Assembly: GCF_008245225.1 (NCBI RefSeq)
Contig: NZ_VTAW01000017.1
Coordinates: forward strand, 1 to 64,000
Source: Natrialba swarupiae
GTDB lineage: Archaea; Halobacteriota; Halobacteria; Halobacteriales; Natrialbaceae
Direction: 5' to 3'
DNA: 64,000 nucleotides
Shown here: positions 12,670-61,946 of the stretch, in pieces
How the letters are laid out: each line of letters opens with the position of its first letter
Numbering within the stretch: position 1 is the first letter of the stretch
Position numbers and translations under genes: made by a program
Notes under the pieces: generated by a model
Told to the model about the DNA's origin: nothing
Databases searched by the model: none
Seen by the model: the letters and a program-made list of their open reading frames with translations, nothing else

Positions 12670-12743
12670 CGGTCTGCTGTCCCGATTTCCGGCGCGAGCA
12701 CGAGACGATCGCGAGTGGGCCGGTCCGTCGGGACAGCAATCCG
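12670..12743. repeat. Palindromic element, family A (copy 1)
   Basis: CGGTCTGCTGTCCCGA (12670-12685) and TCGGGACAGCAATCCG (12728-12743) are inverted repeats with two mismatches, 42 bases apart. They match the termini of the copies near 15.8 and 60.8 kb (TTGCTGTCC core). This copy lies 30 bases after the nitroreductase stop codon and upstream of the PfkB gene, and could fold into a terminator-like hairpin. Its interior is less symmetric than the other copies. Confidence 0.6.
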
Positions 12744-12843
12744 TCTGACACCAGCGCGTATTACGACTGCAGCCGCGGTGACTATGGAATCTCCTCGAGC
12801 GGGGTCCGCAACACATTATTCGCGGCCGGAAAAAGAGGATCGT

Positions 12844-13797
12844 ATGAGCCACGAGATACTCGTCGCCGGGGAGACGCTGATCGACTTCCTCCCCGAGCGG
12901 CCGGGCCCCATCTCGAGTGTCGACGGATTCGAACGTCGACCCGGCGGTGCGCCGGCGAACGTCGCCGTCGCGCTCGCCCGTCTCGAGTGCGTGCCGCTGT
13001 TCTGGAGTCGGGTCGGCGACGATCCGTTCGGCGACTACCTCCTGGAGACGCTGGCCGAGTACGGCGTTCCCGGCCGGTTTCTCGAGACCGATCCCAGCGC
13101 GAAGACCTCGCTCGCGTTCGTCACCCACGACGAGTCGGGTGACCGGAGCTTCTCGTTTTACCGCGACGACACCGCCGACACCCGCATGGAGACGGGACGG
13201 ATCGACGACTCGGTTCTCGCCGGTCTCGAGTGGGTCCACGCGGGCGGCGTCGCGCTCTCGAGTGGCCGTTCGCGCGAGGCGACGCTCGATCTGCTCGAGC
13301 GTGCCGCGGCTCGAGGGTGTACGGTCTCGTTCGACCCCAACGCCAGGCCGGAGCTGTGGCCGGACGAGGCGACGTTCCGCGAGGTCGTCCGGGACGCACT
13401 CGCGTCCGTCGACGTCCTGAAAGCGACTCGCGAGGAACTCGAGGCGCTGGGCTTCGGAGGCGAATCGACCGAGGCTGTCGCCCGCGACGCTCTCGCGGCG
13501 GGGCCACACACGGTGCTCGCGACGCGGGGTGGGGACGGCTCGATCGCGGTTGCGGACGACGACGCCCCCTGGTCGGAGGCGGTCGCCGAGCACCCGGGGT
13601 ACGAGGCGGACGTCGTCGACACCACCGGCGCCGGCGATGCGTTCGTCGCCGGCACGATCGCGGCGATGCGTGACGGGCAGGATCTCGAGGCGACGCTCGC
13701 GTTCGCCAACGCGGTCGGGGCCGCCGCGACGACGGCGCCGGGTGCGATGACGGCCCTCCCCAACCGGGAAGCAGTGCGGGAGATCAGTCGTAGGTGA
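12844..13797 (+). CDS. PfkB-family sugar kinase
   Basis: A 317-residue ribokinase-fold kinase. The N-terminal substrate signature RRPGGAPANVAVALARL (residues about 34-50) and the C-terminal DTTGAGDAFVAG (259-270, catalytic Asp265) are intact. RYSFDPNARPELW-like segment appears as SFDPNARPELWP. The family includes fructokinase and 2-keto-3-deoxygluconate kinase. With a mannonate dehydratase and uronate enzymes in the same window, phosphorylation of 2-keto-3-deoxygluconate is a reasonable guess, but fructokinase is equally possible from sequence alone. The last 14 bases overlap the convergent membrane-protein gene. Start at 12844 follows the palindromic element. Confidence 0.88.
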   Translation: MSHEILVAGETLIDFLPERPGPISSVDGFERRPGGAPANVAVALARLECVPLFWSRVGDDPFGDYLLETLAEYGVPGRFLETDPSAKTSLAFVTHDESGDRSFSFYRDDTADTRMETGRIDDSVLAGLEWVHAGGVALSSGRSREATLDLLERAAARGCTVSFDPNARPELWPDEATFREVVRDALASVDVLKATREELEALGFGGESTEAVARDALAAGPHTVLATRGGDGSIAVADDDAPWSEAVAEHPGYEADVVDTTGAGDAFVAGTIAAMRDGQDLEATLAFANAVGAAATTAPGAMTALPNREAVREISRR

Positions 13798-14730: not shown

Positions 14731-15807
14731 ATGGACGCCGAGGAACTGATCGAAACGCTCGAGGACGCGGGACTGTCGCCGTACCAGGCGGACGCGTTCG
14801 TGACGCTGCTCGAGCTTGGATCGGCGTCCGCGACCGACGTCGCCAGCGCGAGCTCCGTCCCGGATCCACGGATCTACGACGTGTTACGCGGACTCGAGGA
14901 GCAGAGATACGTCGAGACGTACGAACAGGACAGCCTCCACGCGCGGGCCCACGACCCGGCGGAGGTGCTCGCGGATCTGCGCTCGCGGGCCAACCGGTTC
15001 GAGACCGCAGCCGAGGAGATCGAAGACCGGTGGAGTCAGCCGGACATCGAGGAACACAAGGTGAGCATCGTCAAGCGCCTCGATACGGTGCTCGCGCGGG
15101 CCGACGAGCTGATCCGGGCGGCCGAATACCAGGTCCAGATCGGACTGACGCCCGCACAGTTCGACGAGCTTTCCGACGCGCTCGAGACGGCCCGGAAGAA
15201 TGGGGTAGACGTCAGACTCTGTCTGTTTCCGGAGACCGCAGGCGACCTGGCGATTCCACCGATCGAGACGCTGGAACGGGCGTGCTCGGAGGCACGTCGC
15301 CGCGACCTTCCCTCGCCGTTCGTCGCCCTCATCGATCGATCGTGGACGTGCTTTTCGCCGTACGGTGGTTCGACAAACGAGTACGGCGTCATCGTCAACG
15401 ACTGGACTCTCGCGTACGTCTTCAACTGGTATTTCATCACCTGCCTCTGGGAGGTTCTGGAGACGGTGTATACGGACCGACCGGACGAGCCGCCGTTTAC
15501 GTACGCCGACCTTCGGCAGTGTATTCGTGACATCGAGCCGCTGCTCGAGGACGGACTGACCATCGAGGCGACGATCCGTGGCTTCGACACCGAGACCGGC
15601 AGAGAGGTGACCAAACGCGGAACGGTCGTCGACCTCACCTACGCCGGCGTCTCGATGGACGACGACCAGTCCGCGCCACTTTCCCAGCTGGCCGGTGAAA
15701 CGTCGCTTACGCTCGAGACCGATGACGGGACGTACACCGTCGGCGGCTGGGGCGCGTTCATCGAGGACTTCGAGGCGATGCGGGTTACGGTCGAGGCGAT
15801 CGATTGA
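14731..15807 (+). CDS. TrmB-family sugar-responsive transcriptional regulator (1)
   Basis: A 358-residue regulator. Residues 1-80 are the TrmB winged helix (GLSPYQADAFVTLLELGSAS, then DPRIYDVLRGLEEQRYVE). A short coiled segment near 90-110 (FETAAEEIEDRW) leads to a sugar-sensing TrmB C-terminal domain. TrmB proteins switch sugar transport and glycolytic genes in response to a bound sugar. It sits directly ahead of a sugar ABC transporter and is the likely local regulator. Its closest relative in the window is the protein at 55059-56138, similar along its whole length. The stop codon coincides with the left end of a palindromic element. Confidence 0.88.
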   Translation: MDAEELIETLEDAGLSPYQADAFVTLLELGSASATDVASASSVPDPRIYDVLRGLEEQRYVETYEQDSLHARAHDPAEVLADLRSRANRFETAAEEIEDRWSQPDIEEHKVSIVKRLDTVLARADELIRAAEYQVQIGLTPAQFDELSDALETARKNGVDVRLCLFPETAGDLAIPPIETLERACSEARRRDLPSPFVALIDRSWTCFSPYGGSTNEYGVIVNDWTLAYVFNWYFITCLWEVLETVYTDRPDEPPFTYADLRQCIRDIEPLLEDGLTIEATIRGFDTETGREVTKRGTVVDLTYAGVSMDDDQSAPLSQLAGETSLTLETDDGTYTVGGWGAFIEDFEAMRVTVEAID

Positions 15808-15999: not shown

Positions 16000-16333
16000 G
16001 AGGACCTTTCGCCCGGAACCTGGATCGGAGCCAGTATTCAACCGATCCCGTCGTCCGAGACCAGCCATCGTCGTTTTCGTCTCTCGCGATTCCTCGACCG
16101 ATTTCGAGTACAACGATTCATCCTCGAGTCTCGAGTCGATCGATCGTCGCCCCGCCTGTTCCCCGAGCGCCGACTATCGGCGGCCACGAGGACGATTCGC
16201 CCAGGAGAGCCATTCGGGCCAATCGGTCGATACATCGGGTACCAGCAGGCGATATTACTTGATCAACTGATTAACTACACCTGTTGTACCTAACCGGTAG
16301 TTATAAATATTAAAGACCATCATGTTTTTTCGC
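16000..16333. other. Promoter region of the first sugar transporter
   Basis: No convincing gene; a short plus frame from 15998 is basic and unlike this proteome. The right end has TTATAAATATTAAAG (16301-16315), a strong TATA box about 25-30 bases before the ATG at 16334. Just ahead are a TTGATCAA palindrome (16259-16266) and ACCGGT (16293-16298), possible binding sites for the neighbouring TrmB, though no TrmB consensus is certain. Confidence 0.55.
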
Positions 16334-17794
16334 ATGAGTGGGAGACACTCACGGAAGGGCGATCGAACCGACTCGAGCGTCTCGCGGCGGACGTTCGTCA
16401 AGGCGGCCGGCGCGAGCGGGGCAGCGGTAAGCCTGGCCGGTTGTATCTACGGCGACGAGACGGCCGACGAAGCGGTCGTCGTCGGCGCTGATCCGAACAT
16501 GATCGACGCGGTCGGCGACGAGGTCGTCGAACTGTTCGGCGATAGCGGCGCGGATGGGATCGAGATCAGGTTACAGGCCGGTGACGAGGACACGGGCGAC
16601 CGTCGAGACACCTATACGAACCTGCTCCAGGCCGAGGAGACGGATCCCGACCTGCTGCTCATGGACAACGGCTGGGTGAACGTCTTTATCCAGCGTGGTC
16701 AGATCGCGAACCTGAGCGACGCACTCGGCGACGACGACCTCGCACAGATCGAGGACGAGTACTTCGAGTCGTTCACCGCCACGGCGCGGGAACCCGAGAC
16801 GAACGACCTGTTCGGCGTCCCGATCTTCCCGGACTATCCGACGATGCAATACCGGAAGGATTACGCGCGGGAGGCCGGCTACGGCGAAGACGACTTCGAG
16901 GAGTGGGCGACCGAACCGATGACCTGGGCGGAGTGGGCCGAACTAACCGAGGAGATCGTCGAGGCCTCGGACGCGAGTTACGGCCTCGCGACCCAGTGGG
17001 ACATCTACGAGGGGACCGCCTGTTGTACGTGGAACGAGGTCATGTCATCGTTCGGCGGCGCGTACTTCGGCGGCTTCGACAACCTCTTCGGACCGGTCGG
17101 CGACCGACCCGTGACGATCGACGAACCGGAGTTCGTCGACGCGCTTCGGATGATGCGGACGTTCGTCGCCGACGAACACGACGAGTACACGGACGAGGAG
17201 TACCCAACAGGCATCGCGCCCAACTCGATCCTCGGCTGGCAGGAGGAAAACGCCCGGGAGGCGATCCTCAACGGCGAAGCCGTCATGCAACGCAACTGGC
17301 CGTACGCGATCAATCTGAACGTCCAGGAGGCAGACGACCCGCTCGACGTCGAGGACTACGGCGCGATGCCGATCCCCTACGCCGTCAGCGAGGCGGACGC
17401 GAACCAGCCCGGAACCGGCGGCTCGACGGCCGCACTCGGCGGCTGGCACCTGACGCTCAACCCCAACTCCGAACGAACTGACGACGCGGTCGAGGTCCTC
17501 CGTGCGGCGATGACCGACGAGTTCAACCTCGGCATGTTCGACCTCTGGGGGTGGATCCCGCCGAAGCCACACCTGTTCGACACCGAGGAAGCCGAACAGG
17601 TCGAGCCGATGGGCCACTACATGGACACGCTTCGGGTCGCCGGTGAGAACGCTATGCCCCGACCCGTCACGACGGTGTGGCCGGATCAGTCCGAACTCAT
17701 CGCCGAGGAAGTCAACGCGGCCGTCTCCGGTGACAAGAGCCCCGAGGACGCAGCCACCGACTTACAAGACGGACTCGAGGACACCGAAGCCTAG
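16334..17794 (+). CDS. Sugar ABC transporter substrate-binding lipoprotein
   Basis: A 486-residue family-1 solute-binding protein, probably exported by the Tat route and lipid-anchored. Arg18-Arg19 in SRRTFVKAAG starts the signal and LAGC places the lipidated cysteine at 37. The mature part has the two-lobe layout of maltose-type binding proteins, with many aromatic residues (DYPTMQYRKDYAREAGYGED, PMTWAEWAELTEEIVE) suited to stacking on sugars. It heads an operon with two permeases and an ATPase, one base or a few bases apart. Start at 16334 rather than the ATG at 16322, because the Tat region then has the usual length. Sugar unknown. Confidence 0.88.
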   Translation: MSGRHSRKGDRTDSSVSRRTFVKAAGASGAAVSLAGCIYGDETADEAVVVGADPNMIDAVGDEVVELFGDSGADGIEIRLQAGDEDTGDRRDTYTNLLQAEETDPDLLLMDNGWVNVFIQRGQIANLSDALGDDDLAQIEDEYFESFTATAREPETNDLFGVPIFPDYPTMQYRKDYAREAGYGEDDFEEWATEPMTWAEWAELTEEIVEASDASYGLATQWDIYEGTACCTWNEVMSSFGGAYFGGFDNLFGPVGDRPVTIDEPEFVDALRMMRTFVADEHDEYTDEEYPTGIAPNSILGWQEENAREAILNGEAVMQRNWPYAINLNVQEADDPLDVEDYGAMPIPYAVSEADANQPGTGGSTAALGGWHLTLNPNSERTDDAVEVLRAAMTDEFNLGMFDLWGWIPPKPHLFDTEEAEQVEPMGHYMDTLRVAGENAMPRPVTTVWPDQSELIAEEVNAAVSGDKSPEDAATDLQDGLEDTEA

Positions 17795-17795
17795 C

Positions 17796-18809
17796 ATGGC
17801 CACCGATGACCGGACGGCCGGCCCCGCCCGCCGATCGAATCGATCGGGGCCGGTCGTCGCGATCACGCGCTGGATGGAGAACCTCGGGGAGACGGGGTTC
17901 GCCTACCTGCTGTTGACCCCAGTGGTCGTCTTGCTGGGGGCGATCGCTCTCTACCCGCTGTTGCGGACGTTCGAGCTGTCGCTGTACCAGAACGTACTCT
18001 CGGATCCGGAGTTCGTCGGCCTCGAGAACTACGTCCAGCTGTTCACCGGAAACGCCGACGCGCGGATGCCGGGAACCACGACGTTCCTGCCGGAGGTCAC
18101 GACCAGCGGAAGCTTCCCGTACGTCCACGTCGAGGGCTTGTTGCGGAGCGCACTGGCGGTGACGATTATCTTCACCGTCGTGAGCGTCTTCTTCGAGACG
18201 ATCATCGGCTTCGGTCAGGCGCTCGTCCTCGACCGGGAGTTCCGCGGTCGGCGGTGGGTGCGGGCCGCGATCATCATCCCGTGGGCGATCCCGATCGTCA
18301 TCCAGGGGATGATCTTCTACCTGATGTTTCACCCGGACACCGGCTTCCTGACCGAGTACCTCGCCAGCTGGGGTCTCGTCGCGGAGACGAACACGCTCAA
18401 CGATCCGGCGAGTTCGTTGCTGATCGTCACCGTCGCCGACATCTGGAAGACGACGGCGTTCATGGCGCTTTTGATCCTCGCCGGACTCCAGAGCATCGAT
18501 CGGAGCCTCTACGACGTCGCCGAAGTCGCCGGGGCCAGCAAGTGGCAACAGTTCAAACTGATCACGTTCCCGCTGGTGCTTCCCGCACTCGGAATTGCGA
18601 TCCTGTTCCGGACCATCGACGCGATGCGGGTCTACGGCCTCATCGACTCGGTGTCGGGCTGTACGACGGTCCCGTCGCTGTCGTGTATGGTCGTCGAAAC
18701 GTTCAACACGAACCGGGGGCTCGCCTCCGCGATCGCGTTCGTCACCGCCGGAATCATCGCCATCGCCGTGATGGGCGTCATCTACCAGCAGTACAAGGAG
18801 GGTCTCTGA
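17796..18809 (+). CDS. Sugar ABC transporter permease, MalF-type
   Basis: Inner membrane component of 337 residues with six main hydrophobic spans. The cytoplasmic EAA loop that contacts the ATPase is visible as EVAGASKWQQFKLITFPLVL near residues 240-260. The long periplasm-side loop after the first span (NYVQLFTGNADARMPGTTTF) is typical of MalF-type CUT1 permeases. It begins one base after the stop of the binding protein and ends one base before the next permease, so translation is tightly coupled. The ATG at 17796 is the only start that avoids reading through the binding-protein gene. Confidence 0.9.
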   Translation: MATDDRTAGPARRSNRSGPVVAITRWMENLGETGFAYLLLTPVVVLLGAIALYPLLRTFELSLYQNVLSDPEFVGLENYVQLFTGNADARMPGTTTFLPEVTTSGSFPYVHVEGLLRSALAVTIIFTVVSVFFETIIGFGQALVLDREFRGRRWVRAAIIIPWAIPIVIQGMIFYLMFHPDTGFLTEYLASWGLVAETNTLNDPASSLLIVTVADIWKTTAFMALLILAGLQSIDRSLYDVAEVAGASKWQQFKLITFPLVLPALGIAILFRTIDAMRVYGLIDSVSGCTTVPSLSCMVVETFNTNRGLASAIAFVTAGIIAIAVMGVIYQQYKEGL

Positions 18810-18810
18810 G

Positions 18811-19824
18811 ATGGCGACTGCAAACGAACCCCCGACGCAATCGAGCGACGACGAGAACAAGGGACCGCTCGAGCGCTGGACCCACGGCGTCCTCACCGAT
18901 CCGGCGAAGCGAGACCGGCTCTATCGGGCGCTGTTCTACGTCGCGTGCGGATTCTTCCTCGTCACGACCCTGTTTCCGTTCTACTGGCTGCTGGTCCTCG
19001 CGCTGACGCCGAACACGCAGATCCTCGCCGGCGACTGGGAGGTCACTGTTCCGCTCGTCGGGGCGGAAGTGCCGTTCCCGACGCCACAGGGATTCAACGT
19101 TTACGCGTTCGTCGAGGTGTTCCAGCAGGTGCCGTTTCACCTCTACGTCTTCAACAGCTTCGTGCTCGCGAGCGTGACGACGGTTATCGTCATCGCCCTC
19201 GCGAGCCTCGCGGGCTACGTCTTCGGCCGACTCGAGTTCCCAGGACGCGGGCTGATGATGCTCGCCGTGTTGGCGGTCTCGTACTTTCCGCCGGCGGCGT
19301 TTCTCATCCCGCTGTTCGACGCGTTCCTCGGGAACGCGATCGTCGTTCCGTTCCTGGGGATCGAGCTGTTCGCGCCGCCGCGGCTCGTCAACACGCCGGG
19401 GTCGATGATCATGCCCTTTAGCGCACTGTTCCTGCCGCTGGCTATCTTCATCCTCACGACGTTCTACGGCCAGATTCCAGACGGACTCGAGGACGCGGCT
19501 CGCGTCGAGGGAACGACCCGGCTGGGGGCGCTGTTTCGCGTGATCATGCCGCTTTCGGCACCCGGCGTCGCGACGGCGGCCGTGTTGACGTTCATCGCCG
19601 TCTACAACGAGTACTTCTTCAGCTCGATCATGGCGCTACAGAACGAACCGAACCAGTGGTCGCCGCTGGTCGGCGGGATCCTGAGCTATCAGACCCAGTA
19701 TACGACCGACTTCAACCTGATGGCGGCGGCGAGCATCGTCGGCGTCTTGCCGATGTTGATCCTCGTCGTCGTCGCCCAGGAGAAGATCGTCAGCGGACTG
19801 ACCGACGGAGCACTCAAAGAGTAA
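18811..19824 (+). CDS. Sugar ABC transporter permease, MalG-type
   Basis: The second permease of 337 residues. It has six hydrophobic spans after a roughly 35-residue hydrophilic N-terminus. The EAA loop DAARVEGTTRLGALFRVIMP near residues 225-245 and the ending LTDGALKE, similar to the GLTAGAVKG ending of MalG proteins, identify the type. With the preceding MalF-type protein it forms the membrane channel. It ends two bases before the ATPase gene. Confidence 0.9.
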   Translation: MATANEPPTQSSDDENKGPLERWTHGVLTDPAKRDRLYRALFYVACGFFLVTTLFPFYWLLVLALTPNTQILAGDWEVTVPLVGAEVPFPTPQGFNVYAFVEVFQQVPFHLYVFNSFVLASVTTVIVIALASLAGYVFGRLEFPGRGLMMLAVLAVSYFPPAAFLIPLFDAFLGNAIVVPFLGIELFAPPRLVNTPGSMIMPFSALFLPLAIFILTTFYGQIPDGLEDAARVEGTTRLGALFRVIMPLSAPGVATAAVLTFIAVYNEYFFSSIMALQNEPNQWSPLVGGILSYQTQYTTDFNLMAAASIVGVLPMLILVVVAQEKIVSGLTDGALKE

Positions 19825-19826: not shown

Positions 19827-21044
19827 ATGGCACGAGTAACACTAGATAACGTCACGAAACGCTACGACGACGTCGTCGCGGTCGACGACATGAACGTCGA
19901 GATCGAAGATGGCGAGTTCATCTGTCTCGTCGGCCCCTCGGGCTGTGGGAAGTCGACGACGATGGAGACGATCGCCGGCCTGACCAAGCCGACCGAGGGG
20001 ACGATCACGGTCGGCGAAACCGACGTCACGAACCTACCGCCAAAGGACAGGGGCGTGTCGATGGTCTTCCAGAACATCGCGTTGTTCCCCCACATGGACG
20101 TCTACGAGAACGTCTCGTTCGGCCTTCGCCTGCGCAAGTACGACAAAGACGAGATCGATCGTCGCGTCGAGCAAGCGGCCGAAATCGTCCAACTCGAGGG
20201 GATGCTCGACCGCGAGCCCACCGAACTCTCGGGCGGGCAACAACAGCGCGTCGCGATCGCCCGCGCGATCGTCCGCGAACCCGCCGTCTTCCTGATGGAC
20301 GAACCGCTCGCGAACCTGGATGCGAAGCTTCGCGTCCACATGCGAACCGAACTCCAGCGCCTGCACAAACAGCTCGACACGACGATCATCTACGTCACTC
20401 ACGACCAGGCGGAGGCGATGACGATGTCGGACCGCATCGCCGTCATCAACGCCGGCGAACTCCAGCAGATCGCCCCGCCGCTTACCTGCTACAACGAGCC
20501 CGCAAACCGGTTCGTCGCCGGCTTCATCGGCTCGCCCTCGATGAACTTCGTGGAGGGCGAACTCACGGAGACCGGGCTCGTGACCGACCACTTCGACCTC
20601 GAGTTCGACGTCGACGGACTCGATCTCGAGACCGGGAGCGAGGTGACGATGGGCGTCCGACCGGAGGACATCTACCCCGCCGCTACGGCGGAGTCGCTCT
20701 CGAGTTCGTCGGCGGTGATCGACGCGACGACGGACGTTCTCGAACCGATGGGCGACGAGATTTTCGTCTACCTCTCCCTCGAGGACTCACAGACGGCCAC
20801 GATGACGACCGAGGAGGCCTCGAGCGCCTCGAACCAGTTGCTGATGAGCGTCGATCCCGACTCGACGATCGAGGAGGACGAGCGGGTGAGCGTCGTCCTC
20901 GACCGGTCGAAGATCCACCTCTTCGAGACCCGATCGGGCGACGCGCTCGTCCACGGCATCGAGGACGTCACGACGGCAGCTCGAGGGGAGGCGACGGACC
21001 GCCGCGCACACGCCGAGATCGACTCGGGTGGTCGCAGTGAGTGA
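19827..21044 (+). CDS. Sugar ABC transporter ATPase, UgpC/MsmK type
   Basis: A 405-residue ATPase energising the CUT1 transporter. Walker A GPSGCGKST is at about 36-44, signature LSGGQQQR near 133, Walker B VFLMDEP near 155, and the His switch in THDQAEAM near 192. The C-terminal third forms the regulatory OB-fold domain (FIGSPSMNFVEGEL, GVRPEDIYP), which in relatives binds regulators. The final 40 residues are a long acidic tail, longer than usual. Its last bases overlap the small membrane-protein gene that follows. Confidence 0.92.
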   Translation: MARVTLDNVTKRYDDVVAVDDMNVEIEDGEFICLVGPSGCGKSTTMETIAGLTKPTEGTITVGETDVTNLPPKDRGVSMVFQNIALFPHMDVYENVSFGLRLRKYDKDEIDRRVEQAAEIVQLEGMLDREPTELSGGQQQRVAIARAIVREPAVFLMDEPLANLDAKLRVHMRTELQRLHKQLDTTIIYVTHDQAEAMTMSDRIAVINAGELQQIAPPLTCYNEPANRFVAGFIGSPSMNFVEGELTETGLVTDHFDLEFDVDGLDLETGSEVTMGVRPEDIYPAATAESLSSSSAVIDATTDVLEPMGDEIFVYLSLEDSQTATMTTEEASSASNQLLMSVDPDSTIEEDERVSVVLDRSKIHLFETRSGDALVHGIEDVTTAARGEATDRRAHAEIDSGGRSE

Positions 21045-21240: not shown

Positions 21241-21364
21241 ATCGACGAACGGCGACCGCCCCATCGGTCGTGTCGGAAGCAGGTCTCCGTCCGGACCGGA
21301 GAACGGACTCGAGTCCATGACGGAGAGCGAGACCGCCCCCGTCTCGACGGAGGGATCCCGATGA
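21206..21364 (+). CDS. Candidate 52-residue hydrophilic protein
   Basis: A short open frame from ATG 21206 to TGA 21362-21364. It overlaps the end of the small membrane-protein gene in another frame, and its stop overlaps the next ATG (ATGA at 21361). About three quarters of third codon positions are G or C, as in real genes here. The peptide (MNDRNEKSSCTESTNGDRPI and on) is hydrophilic and of low complexity, with no motif. It may be a genuine coupled small protein or simply a translated leader that keeps ribosomes moving to the oxidoreductase gene. Confidence 0.33.
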   Translation: MNDRNEKSSCTESTNGDRPIGRVGSRSPSGPENGLESMTESETAPVSTEGSR

Positions 21365-22536
21365 GTGCGGGCCAGGAACCCGTCCGAGTCGGACTCGTCG
21401 GACTCGGGAACATCGGCCACCACCACGCCGACCGGCTTCTCGAACAGGAACTCGAGGTCGAACTCGTGGGAGGGATGGACGTCGCATCGGAGGCCCGTGA
21501 GCGCTTCGCGGACCGGTACGGCGTCGAGGTCTACGACGACCACCACGACCTCTACGACGCGGCCGACGCCGTGATCGTCACGACGCCCAACCGCTTTCAC
21601 GAGGAGTACGCCGTCGCCGCCCTCGAGCGCGACCTTAACATCCTCCTCGAGAAGCCCCTCGGACACACCCTCGAGAGCGCCCGCCGGATCGCGGCCGCGG
21701 CGGCCGACTCGACCGGCCTCACGATGGTCGGGTTCAACAACCGGTTTCTGAACGCCGTGGCGGTGCTTCGCGATCGGATCGGTCGCGGCGAGTTCGGCGA
21801 GGTCACTCACGTCGAGGCCAACTACGTGCGCCGGCGGGGGATCCCCGGTCGTGGCTCCTGGTTCACCCGAAAGGAGGTCTCGGGCGGCGGCGCACTGATC
21901 GACCTCGGCGTCCACGCGATCGACCTCGGGATGTACCTGCTCGACTATCCCGACCCCGTCGAGGTCTCCGGAGTCACCCGATCGCAGTTCGGTCACCGCG
22001 AGGACTACGCCTATCTCGAGATGTGGGGTGACGACGCAGGCCCGGACGCGTTCGACGTCGACGACTCCGCGAGTGCGTTCGTCCGCTGTGACGACGACCG
22101 GACGATCAGCCTCGAGGTCGCCTGGGCGACGAACCGGCCACCGACCCACGAGTTCGTCGTCCGCGGCACCGAGGCGGCGGCCCGGTTCGACCTGCTCACC
22201 GACGAACTCACGATCTACTCGGCGAGCAAGAGCGGCGGTGATCATACGATCGACGAGACGATCGAGACCCGGGAGAACGACAGCCACGCCGACGAGCAGG
22301 CGGCGTTTCTCGAAGCGATCCTCGCGAACCGCTCGGGAACGCGACGCGACGCCGAAGGCCGAACGCGGGCCGGAACCGTCGAAAACGGCCTGACCGTCCA
22401 GCGGGTCGTCGACGGCATCTACCGCTCGAGCGACCGTGGAGGGACGATCTCCCTCGAGGCAAGCGGCGAATCCGTCCCGCTGAAAGGAGTCGAGGACGAA
22501 TCCGTCCCGCTCGAGGAAAGCTATAGTAACAACTGA
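21361..22536 (+). CDS. Gfo/Idh/MocA-family oxidoreductase (1)
   Basis: A 391-residue NAD(P)-dependent sugar oxidoreductase. The Rossmann motif GLVGLGNIGHHHAD starts at about residue 11. The family EKP motif (ILLEKPLGHT) is near residue 97. The C-terminal region includes GGGALIDLGVHAIDLGMYLL, carrying the conserved Asp and His that position the sugar hydroxyl. Members oxidise or reduce a ring hydroxyl of sugars, inositols or glycosides. It belongs to the transporter operon. The last residues (ESYSNN) and the stop codon are encoded inside a palindromic element, so the C-terminus may have been altered by insertion. Confidence 0.88.
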   Translation: MSAGQEPVRVGLVGLGNIGHHHADRLLEQELEVELVGGMDVASEARERFADRYGVEVYDDHHDLYDAADAVIVTTPNRFHEEYAVAALERDLNILLEKPLGHTLESARRIAAAAADSTGLTMVGFNNRFLNAVAVLRDRIGRGEFGEVTHVEANYVRRRGIPGRGSWFTRKEVSGGGALIDLGVHAIDLGMYLLDYPDPVEVSGVTRSQFGHREDYAYLEMWGDDAGPDAFDVDDSASAFVRCDDDRTISLEVAWATNRPPTHEFVVRGTEAAARFDLLTDELTIYSASKSGGDHTIDETIETRENDSHADEQAAFLEAILANRSGTRRDAEGRTRAGTVENGLTVQRVVDGIYRSSDRGGTISLEASGESVPLKGVEDESVPLEESYSNN

Positions 22537-22606
22537 AACGATTCACACACTGATCGCCCATCAGTCTGGCGATCAGGTGTGCAATGACTTTCAGTGGCTA
22601 CTATAG
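22521..22606. repeat. Palindromic element, family B, overlapping a gene end
   Basis: An 86-base nested palindrome. CTATAGTA (22521-22528) pairs with TACTATAG (22599-22606), ACTGAAA (22532-22538) with TTTCAGT (22589-22595), CACAC with GTGTG, and TGATCGCC (22551-22558) with GGCGATCA (22568-22575) around a nine-base loop. Three-base unpaired spacers fall at matching places on both arms. It supplies the stop codon of the Gfo/Idh gene. The form suits a miniature inverted-repeat element or a terminator. The remaining spacer to 22846 holds no gene. Confidence 0.7.
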
Positions 22607-22846
22607 GACTGATCGTCTCGCCCGCGGCGACAGTGCTCGTCGGACCGATTCTCCCCGTCCGCACTCAGCGAGAGTGCATCAGTGTTAGACGACGAGAGGT
22701 GCATCGACGTTCGACGGCCAGTATAGACCAGGCGACGACTACAAAGTCGAACTGGCCCGGCGTTCGAACCACCTCGGACGAACGCAGAACCGTTACTCGG
22801 ATCCGGAATAGGAATTACTTTGGCTGATGCCGTGGTATCACACCGT

Positions 22847-23815
22847 ATGGACATCGGTGTTCACACCCCACCGCTCGCAGACGAATCGCTCGAGGGAGCG
22901 CTCCAGTATCTCTCGGATCTCGGCGTCTCCGCGATCGAACCCGGCGTCGGCGGCTTCCCCGGCGACGATCACCTCGATCGCTCGGAGTACCTCGGCAACC
23001 AGGACGCTCAAGCCGAACTCGCCGAGTTGCTCGAGGAGTACGAGATGCACGTTAGCGCACTCGCAGTCCACAACAACCCGTTACACCCCGACGACGAACG
23101 GGCGGCGGAGGCAGACACCGAGTTGCGCGAAGCGATCGAACTCGCCGGCCAGCTAGACGTCGACACCGTCACCGGCTTCTCCGGCTTGCCGGCGGGGAGT
23201 CCCACCGACGAGACGCCCAACTGGATCACGGCCCCGTGGCCGACCGAACACGCCGAGGCCCACGAGTACCAGTGGGAGGTCGCCGTCGACTACTGGTCCG
23301 ATCTGGCGGCGTTCGCCGACGACCACGGCGTCGACGTCGGCATCGAGATGCACCCGAACATGCTGGTGTACGAACCGAAGGGGATGGCCCGCCTGCGCGA
23401 AGAGACGAACGACCGCATCGGCGCGAACTTCGACCCCTCCCATCTCTACTGGCAAGGGATCTCGATCACCGACGCGATCCGTTTTCTCGGCGAGCGCGAT
23501 GCGATCCACCACTTCCACGCCAAGGACACGCGCGTCTACGAAGAACAGGCGCGCCTGAAAGGTGTCCTCGACACCGCACCCTACGACGACGAACTCAACC
23601 GCTCGTGGCTGTTCCGCTCGGTCGGCTACGGCCACGACGAGTCCCACTGGAAGGAACTCGTCTCGACGCTCCGAATGGTCGGTTACGACGGCACCTTGAG
23701 CATCGAACACGAAGACTCGCTGACCAGTTCTCGCGAGGGACTCGAGAAGGCGATCGATCTCCTCCAGCGAGCCGTCTTCGAGACCGAACCCGGCGAAGCT
23801 TACTGGGCCGAGTAA
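22847..23815 (+). CDS. Sugar phosphate isomerase/epimerase-like TIM-barrel protein (1)
   Basis: A 322-residue protein of the xylose isomerase-like (AP endonuclease 2) superfamily. Candidate metal ligands are Glu in GIEMHPN, Asp in NFDPSHLYW, His in HFHAKD and Glu in SIEHEDS. Opening MDIGVHTPPLADESLEGAL with FPGDDHLDRSEYL is typical of the subgroup found beside Gfo/Idh proteins. Such pairs act on inositols, ketosugars and 3-keto-glycosides. It lies between two Gfo/Idh genes in one direction, which supports a shared pathway. The ATG at 22847 begins the conserved barrel; nine more residues are possible upstream. Confidence 0.84.
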   Translation: MDIGVHTPPLADESLEGALQYLSDLGVSAIEPGVGGFPGDDHLDRSEYLGNQDAQAELAELLEEYEMHVSALAVHNNPLHPDDERAAEADTELREAIELAGQLDVDTVTGFSGLPAGSPTDETPNWITAPWPTEHAEAHEYQWEVAVDYWSDLAAFADDHGVDVGIEMHPNMLVYEPKGMARLREETNDRIGANFDPSHLYWQGISITDAIRFLGERDAIHHFHAKDTRVYEEQARLKGVLDTAPYDDELNRSWLFRSVGYGHDESHWKELVSTLRMVGYDGTLSIEHEDSLTSSREGLEKAIDLLQRAVFETEPGEAYWAE

Positions 23816-23900
23816 CGGATCGATCACCTCGAGCGATCCGTTCACCCGACCGAACCGCCGGACGGAAACTTCTAACTACAGCTATTGTGAAGGTTTAGGT

Positions 23901-25025
23901 ATGACGCTGGAAGTTGGAGTCCTCGGCTACCGGTTCATGGGCAAGGCACACGCGAACGCGATGGCGCGGCTTCCGATGTTCTTCCCGGACGCGCCCGACA
24001 TCGAGCGAAGTGTCCTCGTCGGCCGCGACGAGGAGGCACTGTCGGATGCCGCCGACCGCCTCGGCTTCGAGTCGATCGCGACCGACTGGGAATCCGTCGT
24101 CGACGACGTCGACGTCTTCTACAACCTCGGACCGAATCACGTCCACGCCGAGCCGTCGATCGCGGCACTCGAGGCCGGCACGCCGACGTTCTGTGAGAAA
24201 CCGCTCGCGCCGACGCTCGAAGGCGCAGAGAAGATGGCCGAGGCGGCTCGAGAGGCCGGGAGCGACGTTCCGGCCGGCTGTGCGTTTAACTATCGGTTCG
24301 TCCCCGCGATCCAGTACGCGAAGAACCTGCTCGAGGGGGGCGAACTCGGCGAGATCCACCACGTGCGCGGGCGATATCTCCAGGACTGGCTGGTCGACCC
24401 CGACGCGCCGTGGTCCTGGCGAAACGACGAGGAACTCGCCGGCTCGGGCGCGCTCGGCGACCTCGGCGCACACACCGTCGACCTCGTGCGCTTTCTGGTT
24501 GGCGACGACGACCTCGCCGGCGGGATCGAGGAGGTCAGCGGCCACCTCCGGACGTTCGTCGATAAACGGCCCGTCGAGGGAAGCGACGAAACCCGTCCGG
24601 TCACCGTCGACGACGCCTACTCCGCGCAACTCGCGTTCGAAAACGGCGCGATGGGAACGCTCGAGGCCTCGCGGTTCGCGACCGGCCACAAGAACGACCA
24701 CACGATCGAGATCCAGGGCTCGAAGGGCAGTCTCCGGTTCTCCCTCGAGCGGCTGAACGAACTCGAGGTGCTCCGAGAGGGCGACCGGGGCTACCAGACC
24801 GTTCTCGTGACAGACGAGGACGACCCGTACGTCGACCACTGGTGGCCGCCGGGCCACGTCGTCGGCTGGGAGCACACCTTCGTCCACGAGAACTACGAGT
24901 TCCTGCGAGCGGTCAGTGAGGGGACCGGGTTCGAACCGAGCTTCGAGGACGGGCTGGCCGCCCAGCGCGTGCTGGCGGCGATCGAAGAGAGCGACGACCG
25001 CGGCGAGTGGGTGTCGCCGCCGTAG
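23901..25025 (+). CDS. Gfo/Idh/MocA-family oxidoreductase (2)
   Basis: A 374-residue oxidoreductase. The nucleotide-binding loop reads GVLGYRFMGKAHANA, in which GYRFMG replaces the usual GxGxxG. EKP appears in TFCEKPLAPTLEGAEKMAEA. A GCAFNYRFVPAIQYAKNLLE segment and GSGALGDLGAHTVDLVRFLV near residues 180-200 are family features. It differs clearly from the Gfo/Idh at 21361, so the two are not a recent duplication. A shared task such as oxidation then reduction of the same sugar is plausible. It starts 85 bases after the TIM-barrel gene. Confidence 0.88.
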   Translation: MTLEVGVLGYRFMGKAHANAMARLPMFFPDAPDIERSVLVGRDEEALSDAADRLGFESIATDWESVVDDVDVFYNLGPNHVHAEPSIAALEAGTPTFCEKPLAPTLEGAEKMAEAAREAGSDVPAGCAFNYRFVPAIQYAKNLLEGGELGEIHHVRGRYLQDWLVDPDAPWSWRNDEELAGSGALGDLGAHTVDLVRFLVGDDDLAGGIEEVSGHLRTFVDKRPVEGSDETRPVTVDDAYSAQLAFENGAMGTLEASRFATGHKNDHTIEIQGSKGSLRFSLERLNELEVLREGDRGYQTVLVTDEDDPYVDHWWPPGHVVGWEHTFVHENYEFLRAVSEGTGFEPSFEDGLAAQRVLAAIEESDDRGEWVSPP

Positions 25026-25186
25026 GATTTTGACACCGACTCGAATCGTCCATCCGATCGCCGAGCGGAGCCATAGCCGGACGAAGCCACCTTCGGACGG
25101 CTGTCGGTCGGGCCGCCGTCCGTTACGGTCGCCGGTCGGACGACTGACATCGACGGGTCTTTGGAATCGTCCCGCCATCGATCGAT

Positions 25187-25876
25187 ATGCAACTCGAGCG
25201 GAGTTCCTGGACGGTGATCGACGAGGCGGCCCCGACGACGGCGCTCGTGCCGGTCGGAAGCACGGAACAACACGGCCCACACGCGCCGGTCGGAACGGAT
25301 ACCACCGTCGCAAACGAGATCGCGGTCGCGGCGGATGGAGAAACCGACCGTGAGACGGTCGTCGTGCCCCCGATTCCGGTCGGTGTCGCTCCCTATCACG
25401 GCCGCTTTCCGGGGACGCTTTCGGTATCGCCGGAGACGCTTCGACGCTACGTTCGCGACGTCGTCACCTCGTTTTCGGGGACGAGCGTCGAGACGGTCGT
25501 TCTCGTCAACGGCCACGGCGGAAATGGAGGCACGCTCTCACACCTCTCGCGAGAGGTGACCGCCTCGGACTCGACCGATCTCGACGTCTACCCGTGGGAG
25601 TGGATGCGCGCGATCGAGGATCACGTCGGCCACGCCGGCGAAATCGAGACGTCCGTCCTCTTGTATCTCTGTCCGGAGGACGTCGGCGAGCCGGTCGACG
25701 GAGACGCCGCGGAGTGGGACACCGTCGTCGACGGCGGCGTCGTTCGCCACTTCACCGACGAGTTCAGCGAGAACGGCGCGGTCGGCGACGCGACCGGTGC
25801 GACGGCCGAGCAGGGCGAACAGGCGTTCGAGACCGCCGTCGACTCGCTGGTTTCGTACCTCGAGCGACTCGAGTAG
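25187..25876 (+). CDS. Creatininase-family metal-dependent amidohydrolase
   Basis: A 229-residue protein of the creatininase/MftE superfamily. Metal-binding features are in order: Glu in VGSTEQHGPHAPVGTDT with nearby His and Asp, then VLVNGHGGNGGTL near residues 106-118, and Glu in HAGEIETSVLLYL. The family includes creatinine amidohydrolase, riboflavin-pathway FAPy deformylase and MftE peptidase, so the reaction cannot be set from sequence. It is the last gene of the plus-strand cluster, 160 bases after a Gfo/Idh gene, and converges with the peptide transporter operon 66 bases away. Confidence 0.8.
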   Translation: MQLERSSWTVIDEAAPTTALVPVGSTEQHGPHAPVGTDTTVANEIAVAADGETDRETVVVPPIPVGVAPYHGRFPGTLSVSPETLRRYVRDVVTSFSGTSVETVVLVNGHGGNGGTLSHLSREVTASDSTDLDVYPWEWMRAIEDHVGHAGEIETSVLLYLCPEDVGEPVDGDAAEWDTVVDGGVVRHFTDEFSENGAVGDATGATAEQGEQAFETAVDSLVSYLERLE

Positions 25877-25942
25877 TCGATCGCGGGGTAGAATGCGCTC
25901 GGAGTCGAGAGAACGAGGTCGGACGAGAAAACGGGATTGGGG

Positions 25943-27520: not shown

Positions 27521-27541
27521 TCGTATATTGTGGAAGTCGTT

Positions 27542-29665: not shown

Positions 29666-29667
29666 CG

Positions 29668-30597
29668 TCAGGTTCGCCTCCGTTGGGTATCCTCGAGATG
29701 GTCCGGATCCAAGACGTCCCGCAGACCGTCCCCGAGCAGGTTGAAGCCGATGACTGTAAGCGCGATGGCGATTCCGGGCGCGGTGATGAGCCACGGGGCC
29801 GACCGGAGGTAGTTTCGCCCGTCGTCGATCATCGCCCCCCACTCAGCCGTCGGTGGCTGTGCGCCGAGTCCCAGAAACGAGAGTCCAGCCGCCGCGAGCA
29901 CGACGGTTCCCAGGTTCAACGTCGCGAGGACGGCGACCGGACTTACCACCGTCGGGAGAAGGTGACGGCGGACGAGACGCCGCCAGGGGGTTCCGTACAG
30001 TTTCGCCGACTGGACGTAGGGCCGACGCTTCACCGAGAGGACGCTGCCGCGAACGATGCGGGCATAGGAGGCCCAGCCCACGAGCGAGAGCGCGAGGACG
30101 ACGTTCCGAAGACTCGGTCCGAGCACGCCGGCGATGACCAACGCGAGGACGAGCCCCGGAAACGCGAGTTGAACGTCGACGAGTCGCATCAGTACGGCGT
30201 CGACGAGCCGTCCACCGGTCGCCGCAACCAGCCCGATCGTCGTGCCGATGACGAGACGAAGTCCCGTCGCGACGACCGCGAGCGCGAGCGAGATTCGGGC
30301 CCCGTAGACGAGTCGAGTCGCCACGTCACGACCCAGCGCGTCCGTCCCGAGCGGATGGGCGAGCGACGGTGACTGGAGTCGGGCCTCGAGCGCCTGTGTC
30401 GTCGGATCGTACGGGGAGACGACTGGTCCGACGATCGCCGCGAACACGAGGACACCACAGATCCCACCACCGAGGCGAATCAGCCCGTTGGCTCTAACTC
30501 GCGGCGGGAGGGCTGTTCGGACGCGACGACGGCTCGTCTCGAGAAGATTCGTCCGACCCAATCCTGTGTACGATCGCCCGGGTTCGTCGCCGCTCAC
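29668..30597 (-). CDS. Dipeptide/nickel-type ABC permease, DppC type
   Basis: A 309-residue membrane protein. A hydrophilic N-terminus of about 40 residues precedes the first span, then come SPYDPTTQALEARLQSPSLA and HPLGTDALGRDVATRLVYGA, the sequence hallmark of DppC/OppC permeases. The EAA loop AKLYGTPWRRLVRRHLLP lies near residues 200-217. The gene overlaps dppB by four bases and ends two bases before the ATPase gene. Confidence 0.92.
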   Translation of the reverse strand: MSGDEPGRSYTGLGRTNLLETSRRRVRTALPPRVRANGLIRLGGGICGVLVFAAIVGPVVSPYDPTTQALEARLQSPSLAHPLGTDALGRDVATRLVYGARISLALAVVATGLRLVIGTTIGLVAATGGRLVDAVLMRLVDVQLAFPGLVLALVIAGVLGPSLRNVVLALSLVGWASYARIVRGSVLSVKRRPYVQSAKLYGTPWRRLVRRHLLPTVVSPVAVLATLNLGTVVLAAAGLSFLGLGAQPPTAEWGAMIDDGRNYLRSAPWLITAPGIAIALTVIGFNLLGDGLRDVLDPDHLEDTQRRRT

Positions 30598-47252: not shown

Positions 47253-47909
47253 ATGGCCACGAACGCGCTGTTGATCGGGGAACGCACCTTTCCATTTCAC
47301 GCCATCGACGAGAAGGGTGACGAACTGGTCGATGCAGTCGGCGACGCCGCGGACGTAGAGATCACGACGGACCGAGATGCACTCGAGTCACTCGACGACT
47401 ACGACGTCCTGATCGATTACATGACCGACAGCGAGTTGACCACCGAACAGATCGATGGACTGGTTTCGTTCGTCCGGAACGGTGGCGCATACGTCGGCGT
47501 CCACTGTGCGGCCGATCTAACGAGTACGGTCCCCTCAGACCCCGAGGACGTCGTGGACACGCGACCGGAACCCGATCCACGCCATCGCTCGTTACTCGGC
47601 GGGGAGTTTCTCGACCATCCGGCCCAGAGCGAGTTTCACGTGGAGGCTGTCTCCGATCATCCGGTTACAGCCGGCGTCGATTCCTTCGACGTCTACGACG
47701 AACCGTACCAGGTCGACGTCGACGCCACCGTCGACGTGCTCGCGCGTATGGAACACTCTGAGTTAAAGAACTACCCCGTCGCCTGGGTTCGGACCGACGG
47801 AGACGGCCGCGTCTGCTACATCTCACTCGGACATACGGACGAATCGCTTCGCAGTTCCGGCTTTCGACAGCTTCTGCGCAACGCGATTACGTGGGCGACC
47901 GACGGCTAA
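47253..47909 (+). CDS. ThuA-like domain protein
   Basis: A 218-residue protein of the ThuA (trehalose utilisation) family, a flavodoxin-like fold. MATNALLIGERTFPFHAIDE, DYDVLIDYMTDSELTTEQID, and FVRNGGAYVGVHCAADL with GGEFLDHPAQSEFHVE form the conserved core. In bacteria ThuA proteins work with Gfo/Idh oxidoreductases on disaccharides through 3-keto intermediates. Here it is beside a sugar ABC transporter and a GH3 glycosidase, a matching context. It stands as a single gene on its strand, pointed at the transporter operon. Confidence 0.84.
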   Translation: MATNALLIGERTFPFHAIDEKGDELVDAVGDAADVEITTDRDALESLDDYDVLIDYMTDSELTTEQIDGLVSFVRNGGAYVGVHCAADLTSTVPSDPEDVVDTRPEPDPRHRSLLGGEFLDHPAQSEFHVEAVSDHPVTAGVDSFDVYDEPYQVDVDATVDVLARMEHSELKNYPVAWVRTDGDGRVCYISLGHTDESLRSSGFRQLLRNAITWATDG

Positions 47910-47946
47910 CAGCGGCTCTCCGACACTCCACACCGCATGAAACCGG

Positions 47947-51139: not shown

Positions 51140-51150
51140 TGAATACCTGT

Positions 51151-52524: not shown

Positions 52525-52538
52525 ACGAAAAAGATTGT

Positions 52539-59934: not shown

Positions 59935-60675
59935 ATGGTTCAGACCGCGATTCAGTTGTACTCGCTTCGTGACATCGACGCCTCGCTCCCCGAGGTTCTC
60001 GACCTCGTCGGTGACACCAGCTTCGACGGTGTGGAGTTCGCCCACCGCGTCGGATCCGACGACGTCGACGTCGATGCCGTCCTCGAGGCGCTCGAGCGCA
60101 ACGGGCTCGAGTCGGCGGCGGCCCACGTCGGACTCGAGGCCCTAGAGGAGGAGTACGAGGCGATGACGGAACTGTACGAGACGCTGGGCTGTGAGACGCT
60201 CGTCGTGCCGTGGCTCGATCCCAAACAGTTCGCCTCCGAAGATGCGGTCGCGGACACGGCCGATCGTCTCGAGCGGGTCGCCACCGATCTCGCCGAGGAC
60301 GGGTTCGACCTCCACTATCACAACCACGACCAGGAGTTCGTCAGCCTCGGCGAGGGAACTGCGATGGACGAACTACTCGCGCGAGCGCCGACTGTCGGCT
60401 TCGAAATCGACCTCGGCTGGGCGCGTGCGGCCGGGGCCGACCCCGTCGAGGTCGTCGACGAACACGCCGATCGGATCTCCTACGCTCACTTCGCTGACGC
60501 CGACGCCGAGACGATGGCCTGTGTCGAACTCGGAGACGGCGACCTCGACGTCGAGGCCGCACTCGAGGCGGTCCGCCGTGCCGACGTCGAGTGGTACGTC
60601 TACGAGCACGACGAGCCCGACACACCCCGGGAGTCACTCGCCCACGGCGCCGAGACGCTCGACTCTTTCAGGTGA
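59935..60675 (+). CDS. Sugar phosphate isomerase/epimerase-like TIM-barrel protein (2)
   Basis: A 246-residue xylose isomerase-like barrel. MVQTAIQLYSLRDIDASLPE with DTSFDGVEFAH is a typical opening. Candidate metal ligands are Glu in VEFAH, His in HYHNHDQEF, Glu/Asp in GFEIDLGW, and Glu in YVYEHDEPDTP. The family includes hydroxypyruvate isomerases, inosose enzymes and 3-keto-glycoside-processing proteins. It is much shorter than the TIM-barrel protein at 22847 and only distantly related. It precedes a convergent Gfo/Idh gene, separated by a palindromic element. Confidence 0.84.
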   Translation: MVQTAIQLYSLRDIDASLPEVLDLVGDTSFDGVEFAHRVGSDDVDVDAVLEALERNGLESAAAHVGLEALEEEYEAMTELYETLGCETLVVPWLDPKQFASEDAVADTADRLERVATDLAEDGFDLHYHNHDQEFVSLGEGTAMDELLARAPTVGFEIDLGWARAAGADPVEVVDEHADRISYAHFADADAETMACVELGDGDLDVEAALEAVRRADVEWYVYEHDEPDTPRESLAHGAETLDSFR

Positions 60676-60765: not shown

Positions 60766-60846
60766 ATACGGTTTGCTGTCCATCAGTACCGCCGTGTCCG
60801 GGCCCGCTTTGCGGGAGCGGCGGGACACAGGGACAGCAATCCGTAT
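60766..60846. repeat. Palindromic element, family A (copy 3)
   Basis: ATACGGTTTGCTGTCC (60766-60781) and GGACAGCAATCCGTAT (60831-60846) are inverted repeats with one mismatch. Inside, GTGTCC pairs with GGACAC and CCCGC with GCGGG around TTT. The right end meets the stop codon of the minus-strand Gfo/Idh gene, reading TGATACGGATTGCTGTCC from the gene side, just as copy 2 reads TGATACGGATTACTGTCG after the TrmB stop. Confidence 0.75.
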
Positions 60847-61946
60847 CAGTCGTCTGCGGGCTCGGGTGAGAGCACACCCGATTCGATCATCTCCTCGAAG
60901 GGGTTGTCGTCGATCTCGAGTGGGAGGTCGACCCGGCCGCGCCGGCGGACCGACTCGTATCCCGCAAAGAGGATTTCGGCCGTGTTCAATCCGATCCGAC
61001 CGCTGAGGGCCGGCTCGTCGCCGGAATCGAGCGAGTCTACCAGATGTTCGACGAGTCGGTCGTGGAAGAACGATCCGAGTCGATCGGCCGGTTCCGAGCC
61101 CGCGTTGTGGATGTTCTCGCCGTCGACGTCGATCACTTCGCGCTGGCCGCCGCGCTCCAGTTCGAGCATCGGTCCGCCGTCGACGTCGATCCGAACGGTG
61201 CCTTCGGTACCGCGCAGGACGAACGCGCTGTCGATCAGTTCGGTCCGCCTGCCGGTACTCGAGACGGCGTGGACGCCGTTGTCGTACGCCCACTGTGCCC
61301 ACATCTGGTTTTCCTGATGCGCGCCGAATCGCACGTCCTCTTCCCGATAGTCGAGTTGTGCGATAACCCACTCGGCGGGGCGGTCGCCAGCGAACATGCC
61401 CGCGAGGTCGACCGAGTGGGCGCCCGTATCGTAAAAGTCACCCCAGCCGATCTCGATCCGGGAGAGGTCGCCAATCTCGCCTTCCTCCAGGAGACGGTTG
61501 GCTTCGGTGAACGGCTTCGCGAACCGCCGCTGTCGGTTGAACGTTAGTTGGGTGTCGTACCGCCAGCAGGCCTGGACCATCCGCTGGGCGCTCGCCCAGG
61601 TGTGGGACATCGGTTTCTCGCAGTTGATCGCCCGGACTGCGTCGTGTTTTGCACAGCCGACGACGATCGCCTCGTGGATCGCGGGCGGAACGGCGATGCT
61701 GACGATATCCGGACCGACCGCCTCGAGCATCCGCTCGTAGTCCTCGAAGACGTTCTCCGCGGGCACGTCGAACGCGTCGGCGAACGCGTCGCCGTTCTCG
61801 GGAACGACGTCGGCACACGCGACGACTCTGCACCGATCGTGATTTCGATACGCTTCCGCGTGGCGATACCCCATCGCGAAGCCGTCGACCGTCGGACTCG
61901 ACGGATCCGGCCCCGTACCGATGATAGCTACTGTATGCTCGCTCAT
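60846..61946 (-). CDS. Gfo/Idh/MocA-family oxidoreductase (3)
   Basis: A 366-residue oxidoreductase. HTVAIIGTGPDPSSPTVDGF near the N-terminus holds the Rossmann loop with an unusual insertion, then AMGYRHAEAYRNHDRCRVVA. The EKP motif is in INCEKPMSHTWASAQRMVQA near residue 100-120. The C-terminal domain includes GWGDFYDTGAHSVDLAGMFA, holding conserved Asp and His. The short PSSP insert near residue 12 is seen in several haloarchaeal relatives. The stop codon is supplied at the edge of a palindromic element. ATG at 61946 is preferred over the 69-residue longer frame, which is basic. Confidence 0.87.
   Translation of the reverse strand: MSEHTVAIIGTGPDPSSPTVDGFAMGYRHAEAYRNHDRCRVVACADVVPENGDAFADAFDVPAENVFEDYERMLEAVGPDIVSIAVPPAIHEAIVVGCAKHDAVRAINCEKPMSHTWASAQRMVQACWRYDTQLTFNRQRRFAKPFTEANRLLEEGEIGDLSRIEIGWGDFYDTGAHSVDLAGMFAGDRPAEWVIAQLDYREEDVRFGAHQENQMWAQWAYDNGVHAVSSTGRRTELIDSAFVLRGTEGTVRIDVDGGPMLELERGGQREVIDVDGENIHNAGSEPADRLGSFFHDRLVEHLVDSLDSGDEPALSGRIGLNTAEILFAGYESVRRRGRVDLPLEIDDNPFEEMIESGVLSPEPADD

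Follow-up and report, generated by a model that had tools for sequence, protein, structure and literature searches.

Gene block and its conservation in Halobacteriales

The stretch of DNA analysed here, referred to as the window, comprises 64,000 nucleotides of the haloarchaeon Natrialba swarupiae (contig NZ_VTAW01000017.1, positions 1 to 64,000), whose genome of 4.2 Mb is distributed over 99 contigs and whose near relatives belong to the Halobacteriales. On its forward strand it carries a block of genes encoding two Gfo/Idh oxidoreductases, designated GfoA (21361..22536) and GfoC (23901..25025), a metal-dependent triosephosphate isomerase (TIM)-type barrel protein, here simply called TIM (22847..23815), and a creatininase-family amidohydrolase (25187..25876). 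As weighed below, the likeliest role of the first three is in a sugar route that proceeds through 3-keto intermediates. A first-pass annotation had named these families from the sequence, and Pfam agrees with it for all four open reading frames (ORFs), each of which is present as predicted: GFO_IDH_MocA for GfoA and GfoC, AP_endonuc_2 for TIM, and Creatininase (210 bits) for the last gene. TIM starts with an ATG at 22847 and comprises 322 amino acids; the longer ORF begins at a TTG at 22820. The intergenic gaps amount to 316 bases in front of GfoA, 310 in front of TIM, 85 in front of GfoC and 161 in front of the creatininase gene.

Absence of co-occurrence in other genomes had been named as an outcome that would refute an archaeal 3-keto-glycoside route, and the opposite was found in a sample of 146 Halobacteriales genomes. 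Orthologues of TIM are encoded in 100 of them, with 63-86% identity over near-full length for most matches, while GfoC is present in 110 and GfoA in 91 genomes. TIM and GfoC occur together in 99 genomes (Fisher p 7e-23), and the sole genome possessing TIM without GfoC is 78% complete. GfoA was never found without TIM: the co-occurrence listing comprises 84 of the 91 GfoA genomes, and the remaining seven have TIM as well. The genes are also linked physically, as TIM and GfoC reside on the same strand at a distance of at most 3.5 kb in 74 genomes, and TIM and GfoA in 45. GfoA associates chiefly with a TrmB-transporter cassette, whose first permease gene is its recurrent neighbour, and TIM with GfoC. 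Taken together, GfoA, TIM and GfoC form a real guild, and their arrangement goes beyond chance.

In several Natrialbaceae (loci L117 and L125), GfoC is located away from TIM and immediately follows a pair of methionine synthase-like genes; such a MetE pair is also present upstream of the block in the window (9583-11777). Small genes separate TIM from GfoC at some loci and were considered as further sugar genes, but the one that was scanned turned out to belong to AIM24/TIGR00266. Likewise, thiamine diphosphate-dependent enzymes encoded next to GfoA in one genus (L101-L104) were considered as IolD-like partners and rejected. They are of the acetolactate synthase type and have an XPB helicase and a DUF418 protein as neighbours, so no pathway meaning was assigned to them.

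Relationships of the three conserved enzymes

Among characterised proteins, GfoA, TIM and GfoC each come nearest to an enzyme of 3-keto-sugar chemistry, in line with the 3-keto-glycoside guild that the first-pass annotation had envisaged. The best match of GfoA in the PDB is the C-glycoside 3-dehydrogenase DgpA (141 bits), and the best other molecule reaches 80 bits, which makes GfoA a putative glycoside 3-dehydrogenase. For GfoC, the PDB ranking is headed by the uncharacterised Kribbella protein 4h3v (341 bits), followed by levoglucosan dehydrogenase 6a3f (269 bits) and, after two more uncharacterised proteins, by scyllo-inositol/L-glucose dehydrogenase (170 bits). The tree places GfoC in an LgdA-like clade, and it shares 42% identity with an LgdA that scores above the NCBIfam cut-off. 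It may thus serve as 3-keto-sugar reductase or as a second 3-dehydrogenase.

A profile built from 29 homologues of TIM matched SCO6571 (97 bits) and AtHYD (61 bits) best, with the next match at 40 bits. The same two proteins stand out by structure: the AlphaFold model of TIM (predicted local distance difference test score of 91) aligns in VIA to SCO6571 with a Z score of 34.6 and to AtHYD with a Z score of 32.5 (294 residues, 2.3 Å). All other entries of the structure library, which covers part of the barrel families, score at most 27.8, including TM0416 and the 3-keto-glucoside 4-epimerase YcjR. SCO6571, the best match, is uncharacterised, leaving the 2-hydroxy-3-keto-glucal hydratase AtHYD, in second place, as the nearest characterised relative. 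The residues E167, H169, D196, H224 and E287 of TIM are invariant and align with AtHYD, four of them (E167, D196, H224 and E287) as metal-site residues. By fold and by these aligned residues TIM is an HYD-like metal-dependent TIM barrel, and it is proposed to act as a keto-glycal hydratase and possibly also as an eliminase. As compared to the barrel in LgdB2 position at another locus (L122), TIM shows 26% identity (49.7 bits).

The fold also bears on an ordinary free-sugar pathway, in which a rare aldose or ketose would be oxidised at C1 or C2 by the Gfo enzymes, with TIM acting as a keto-sugar epimerase or isomerase. TIM has its fold in common with the D-psicose/tagatose 3-epimerases and TM0416 (Z scores of 26-27), Gfo6 serves xylose use in haloarchaea and is matched by GfoC with 85 bits (cut-off 350), and an L-glucose dehydrogenase is found in the GfoC clade. 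However, AtHYD and SCO6571 outscore every epimerase by 5 to 7 Z units, and the bacterial neighbours described next are of DgpA, OGE and ThuA type rather than aldonate enzymes, making this pathway decidedly improbable.

Named genomes were scanned for TIM homologues, which gave 54 loci in bacteria and 26 in haloarchaea. The bacterial homologues share 45-51% identity with TIM and derive mostly from Clostridia. Within 5 kb of them we found a Gfo/Idh gene of the Listeria type (Gfo1) at 29 loci, a small OGE-like barrel at 25, a second Gfo/Idh type (Gfo2) at 20 and ThuA at 13. Gfo1 of Listeria matches DgpA proteins with 458.9 and 440.5 bits, and DgpA itself falls within the Gfo1 group in the tree; the small barrel of Listeria matches 8tcd, 8tcs and 8tct as well as AtOGE (8bvk; named as 8BVK in PMC10628242). 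The bacterial context supports the guild as well, in that the closest TIM homologues are accompanied there by dehydrogenases of the DgpA type, by AtOGE-like eliminases and by ThuA. At one locus of Aerophobetes (L179), TIM, Gfo1 and an LgdA-like Gfo protein reproduce the trio of the window. Pfam analysis of 78 bacterial neighbour ORFs returned scattered regulators and single members of GH78, GH20, GH1 and GH3, with no dominant substrate signal.

An inositol gene was found within 5 kb of TIM at none of these 54 loci, which carry the closer homologues. This result bears on a cyclitol route, in which a Gfo/Idh enzyme would convert an inositol-like compound to an inosose, TIM would dehydrate or isomerise the latter prior to later ring opening, and the PfkB-family sugar kinase encoded upstream in the window (12715..13797) would act like IolC. 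It derives support, and the 3-keto reading a point of concern, from a divergent TIM homologue (38% identity) on plasmid pAt of Agrobacterium Ach5 (L080, 7000-13692). The gene is flanked by IolG on one side and by IolC/IolD/IolB on the other, the cluster has no other annotated IolE, and the encoded protein may possibly be a non-orthologous inosose dehydratase. In addition, the kinase of the window reaches 197 bits with the IolC-N model (cut-off 300), and a scyllo-inositol dehydrogenase sits inside the GfoC clade. On the other hand, the rhizobial TIM forms a long divergent branch in the tree. With the inositol 2-dehydrogenase (IolG) model, GfoA and GfoC score 100 and 109 bits, respectively, against a cut-off of 355, and TIM scores 31 bits with the IolE model against a cut-off of 290. 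IolD exceeded its cut-off in none of 59 genomes, a result on which the canonical inositol pathway was rejected. A cyclitol route in general is unlikely.

As to origin, the TIM proteins of haloarchaea group in a single clade (100/100) that is nested in the bacterial diversity, next to an Armatimonadetes protein that has an LgdA-like Gfo neighbour, and all matches in a phylum-wide sample fell within the order of the window itself. The simplest reading is a single transfer from bacteria.

Neighbouring genes and the second island

The annotation had placed the block behind a sugar transporter under a TrmB-type regulator, and Pfam confirms both. Upstream of the block and on the same strand lie genes for a TrmB-type regulator (14731..15807; Regulator_TrmB 189.5 bits, TrmB 51.5 bits) and a CUT1-type ATP-binding cassette (ABC) transporter. 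The latter comprises a solute-binding protein of the twin-arginine translocation (Tat) type (16322..17794; SBP_bac_1 69 bits plus a TAT signal match), a first permease (17796..18809; BPD_transp_1), whose start is inferred at 17796 within a longer ORF from 17643, a MalG-like second permease (18811..19824; BPD_transp_1, 91.5 bits with the MalG model, below its cut-off) and a MalK/UgpC-type ATPase (19827..21044; ABC_tran and OB_MalK, with 426 bits in the UgpC model against a cut-off of 432). The PfkB-family kinase, also on the forward strand (PfkB 210 bits), stays below the cut-off of the fructokinase model as of the IolC-N model. In close relatives (L039 and L040) it directly precedes TIM in the order PfkB-TIM-GfoC, and it is a possible downstream enzyme of the route.

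The creatininase gene follows GfoC on the same strand after the gap of 161 bases, and a role as pathway enzyme, opening a lactam or amide formed on amino sugars, had been suggested for it. More broadly, all four genes could constitute a single pathway, with the creatininase as the enzyme that opens a lactam, amide or diketo ring, comparable to Thermotoga IolN, which it matches weakly (62.3 bits). Yet it misses the NCBIfam cut-offs for IolN (245), creatininase (88.4 bits, cut-off 235) and MftE (139.8 bits, cut-off 172) alike, and a creatininase gene is absent from all 40 loci retrieved around TIM orthologues. Its closest homologues in the 146 genomes (72% identity in G117 and 54% in G126) are encoded away from TIM. 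G117 retains the neighbourhood of the window, namely the MetE pair (83-92%), creatininase, SBP5 (68%), permeases (75-80%) and an HD protein (82%), and carries its TIM-GfoC block on a different contig; in G126, the creatininase gene adjoins SBP5/Opp genes. In the window an SBP5/Opp transporter is encoded on the opposite strand after the creatininase gene (25943-31538). Because of the synteny in G117 and G126 and the absence from the 40 TIM loci, the creatininase was assigned to the neighbouring SBP5/Opp unit and not to the 3-keto module. The suggestion of a pathway role thus did not hold: a four-gene pathway is highly improbable, and a function as IolN-like ring opener was rejected for reasons of cut-offs and synteny. 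Pairing of a creatininase-family gene with an SBP5/Opp-type ABC transporter was observed in three genomes (window, 25187-31538; L099; L100), and the pair is a candidate amide or peptide uptake unit.

A second island (47253-61946) was said to contain the same ingredients as the block. It encodes ThuA (47253..47909, forward strand; PF06283, 116.6 bits), a transporter, a GH3 enzyme, TrmB, UxuA, a Gfo/Idh oxidoreductase (60846..61946, reverse strand; GFO_IDH_MocA 65 bits, start inferred) and a small AtOGE-like barrel (59938..60675, forward strand). Hence, ThuA, Gfo/Idh and TrmB recur as claimed; the barrel that had been annotated there is of the UxuA type, and the AtOGE-like barrel, which had gone unnamed, comes in addition. 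The latter, a putative 3-keto-glycoside beta-eliminase of 245 amino acids, can be aligned along its length to the small OGE-like barrels of bacteria (hhalign, 99.9%), and its YHNH motif is the counterpart of His132/His134 in AtOGE. Its gene is preceded by an NAD-dependent epimerase-family gene (58961-59842) and followed by the Gfo/Idh gene, and relatives are present in 70 of the 146 genomes. The Gfo-OGE-GH3-TrmB neighbourhood is kept in genome G086 (L237) with 55-75% identity. Apparent gene debris was observed at 56750-57390, where a Gfo/Idh-like N-terminus (MNANRHQLTIGIVGLGTHG...) continues in a different frame and precedes a segment that, by eye, resembles a C-terminal glycosidase fragment; a short stretch of this debris had no Pfam match.

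ThuA and OGE-like genes come close to TIM in some relatives. The two genes ThuA and TIM are separated by no more than 5 kb at 5 places, as compared to 0.27 expected (P 9e-6). One locus has the order ThuA-Gfo-Gfo-OGE-TIM-Gfo-ThuA (L228; G034, contig C8), which links OGE with TIM in this genome, and both this locus and L229 (G062, contig C4) combine ThuA, several Gfo/Idh genes, OGE-like barrels and TIM or a GfoC paralogue within less than 12 kb. At a Halosimplex locus (L159, ~15051), a ThuA protein ~67% identical to that of Priestia is encoded within 7 kb of TIM-GfoC, which suggests a separate, recent transfer from bacteria. Elsewhere in the genome of the window, a GfoA paralogue (~47-51% identity) diverges from a ThuA gene (L106; G000, contig C20, 9739-11810). 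This pairing recurs to a total of 16 sampled genomes, the genome of the window included, and is a second candidate 3-keto locus.

A putative 3-keto sugar route and its known counterparts

The likeliest reading of the data, which we favour with modest confidence, is that haloarchaea possess a 3-keto sugar route of oxidation, elimination, hydration and reduction that was acquired once from bacteria. It builds on the protein families, their conservation and linkage, the predicted fold and the kinship with enzymes of 3-keto chemistry. We infer every reaction of this route, as well as which way each Gfo enzyme works, what the substrate is and any cooperation of the two islands. The CUT1 transporter would import a glycoside or related sugar, which GfoA would oxidise at C3 with NAD. 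Metal-assisted beta-elimination would then release the leaving group and yield a 2-hydroxy-3-keto-glycal, the eliminase being either TIM of the block itself or an AtOGE-like barrel such as the one at 59938-60675. The AtHYD-like TIM would add water to give a 3-keto sugar, which GfoC may reduce, unless it serves as second 3-dehydrogenase, and the product would enter central metabolism, perhaps via the upstream PfkB kinase. Bacteria employ the same kit for levoglucosan, where LgdB2 is partly bifunctional in covering both the elimination and the hydration step (PMC7676230), and in the AtOGE/AtHYD glucoside pathway (PMC10628242).

Several points weigh against this reading, in addition to the rhizobial homologue. 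GfoA belongs to a sister lineage beside the DgpA clade and not within it, and TIM shares 21% identity with AtHYD. GfoC reaches 323.7 bits with the NCBIfam model for levoglucosan dehydrogenase (NF052479), i.e. half the cut-off of 650, as compared to 749 bits for Klebsiella LgdA, so that a levoglucosan operon was rejected by the strict family test. The GfoC clade includes the scyllo-inositol/L-glucose dehydrogenase, and L-glucose dehydrogenase oxidises C1 (PMC5969746). Moreover, the OGE-like barrel is encoded 36 kb from the block, the operon of which has neither a separate eliminase nor ThuA; in particular, no LgdB1-type eliminase accompanies GfoC in the block. TIM-GfoC(-PfkB) is also found beside a BMP/nucleoside-type ABC transporter (L040, 11583-16444). 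Thus, the substrate need not be CUT1 cargo, hinting at another imported substrate in some relatives. The large sequence distances to characterised enzymes likewise caution against a firm claim. A stronger version is doubtful: haloarchaea would run a complete non-hydrolytic 3-keto route of glycoside cleavage, taken over from bacteria a single time and now found across most of the order, with one HYD-type barrel that both eliminates and hydrates between DgpA-like and LgdA-like dehydrogenases under TrmB control.

The route, if it exists, would endow haloarchaea with a way of breaking glycosides that has been described for bacteria so far; the literature searched, a single open-access collection, yielded no archaeal 3-keto glycoside pathway. 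It would account for haloarchaeal use of glycosides with poor leaving groups or of anhydrosugars. As TIM-GfoC occurs in about two thirds of the sampled Halobacteriales, the route would also provide a testable role for a large part of the haloarchaeal proteins annotated as 'sugar phosphate isomerase' or 'Gfo/Idh', and salt-tolerant catalysts for 3-keto-sugar chemistry would become accessible.

Judged by its genes, the block may represent an archaeal version of a known bacterial kind of route. With the levoglucosan pathway LgdA/LgdB1/LgdB2/LgdC of Bacillus smithii (PMC7676230) it shares two Gfo/Idh proteins and a barrel of ~36 kDa behind an ABC transporter, whereas it differs in that GfoC falls below the LgdA cut-off, LgdB1 is missing from the operon, TIM is 26% identical to LgdB2, GfoA resembles DgpA rather than LgdC and TrmB replaces LacI. 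Likeness to the AtOGE/AtHYD pathway of Agrobacterium (PMC10628242) consists in the resemblance of TIM to AtHYD including the metal-site alignment and in the AtOGE-like barrel with its His-x-His motif in the second island; however, the two barrels are encoded 36 kb apart in the window, and identity is low. The DgpA system of gut bacteria, which 3-dehydrogenates the C-glycoside puerarin, provides the best solved match of GfoA, and Gfo1 is the commonest neighbour of bacterial TIM, but GfoA is a sister lineage, and CGE subunits were not seen in the block. Inositol catabolism (IolG/IolE; IolG/M/N/O in Thermotoga) draws on the same superfamilies, i.e. Gfo/Idh, TIM barrel and creatininase, whereas all family cut-offs tested were missed and IolD is absent. 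Finally, the uncharacterised Gfo-TIM-ThuA-TIM-Gfo clusters of Listeria and Clostridia are where the closest bacterial TIM homologues occur, along with genes for ThuA and for DgpA-like and OGE-like proteins. As compared to these, the archaeal genes are regrouped into a TIM-GfoC core, with GfoA joining the transporter and ThuA and OGE usually residing elsewhere.

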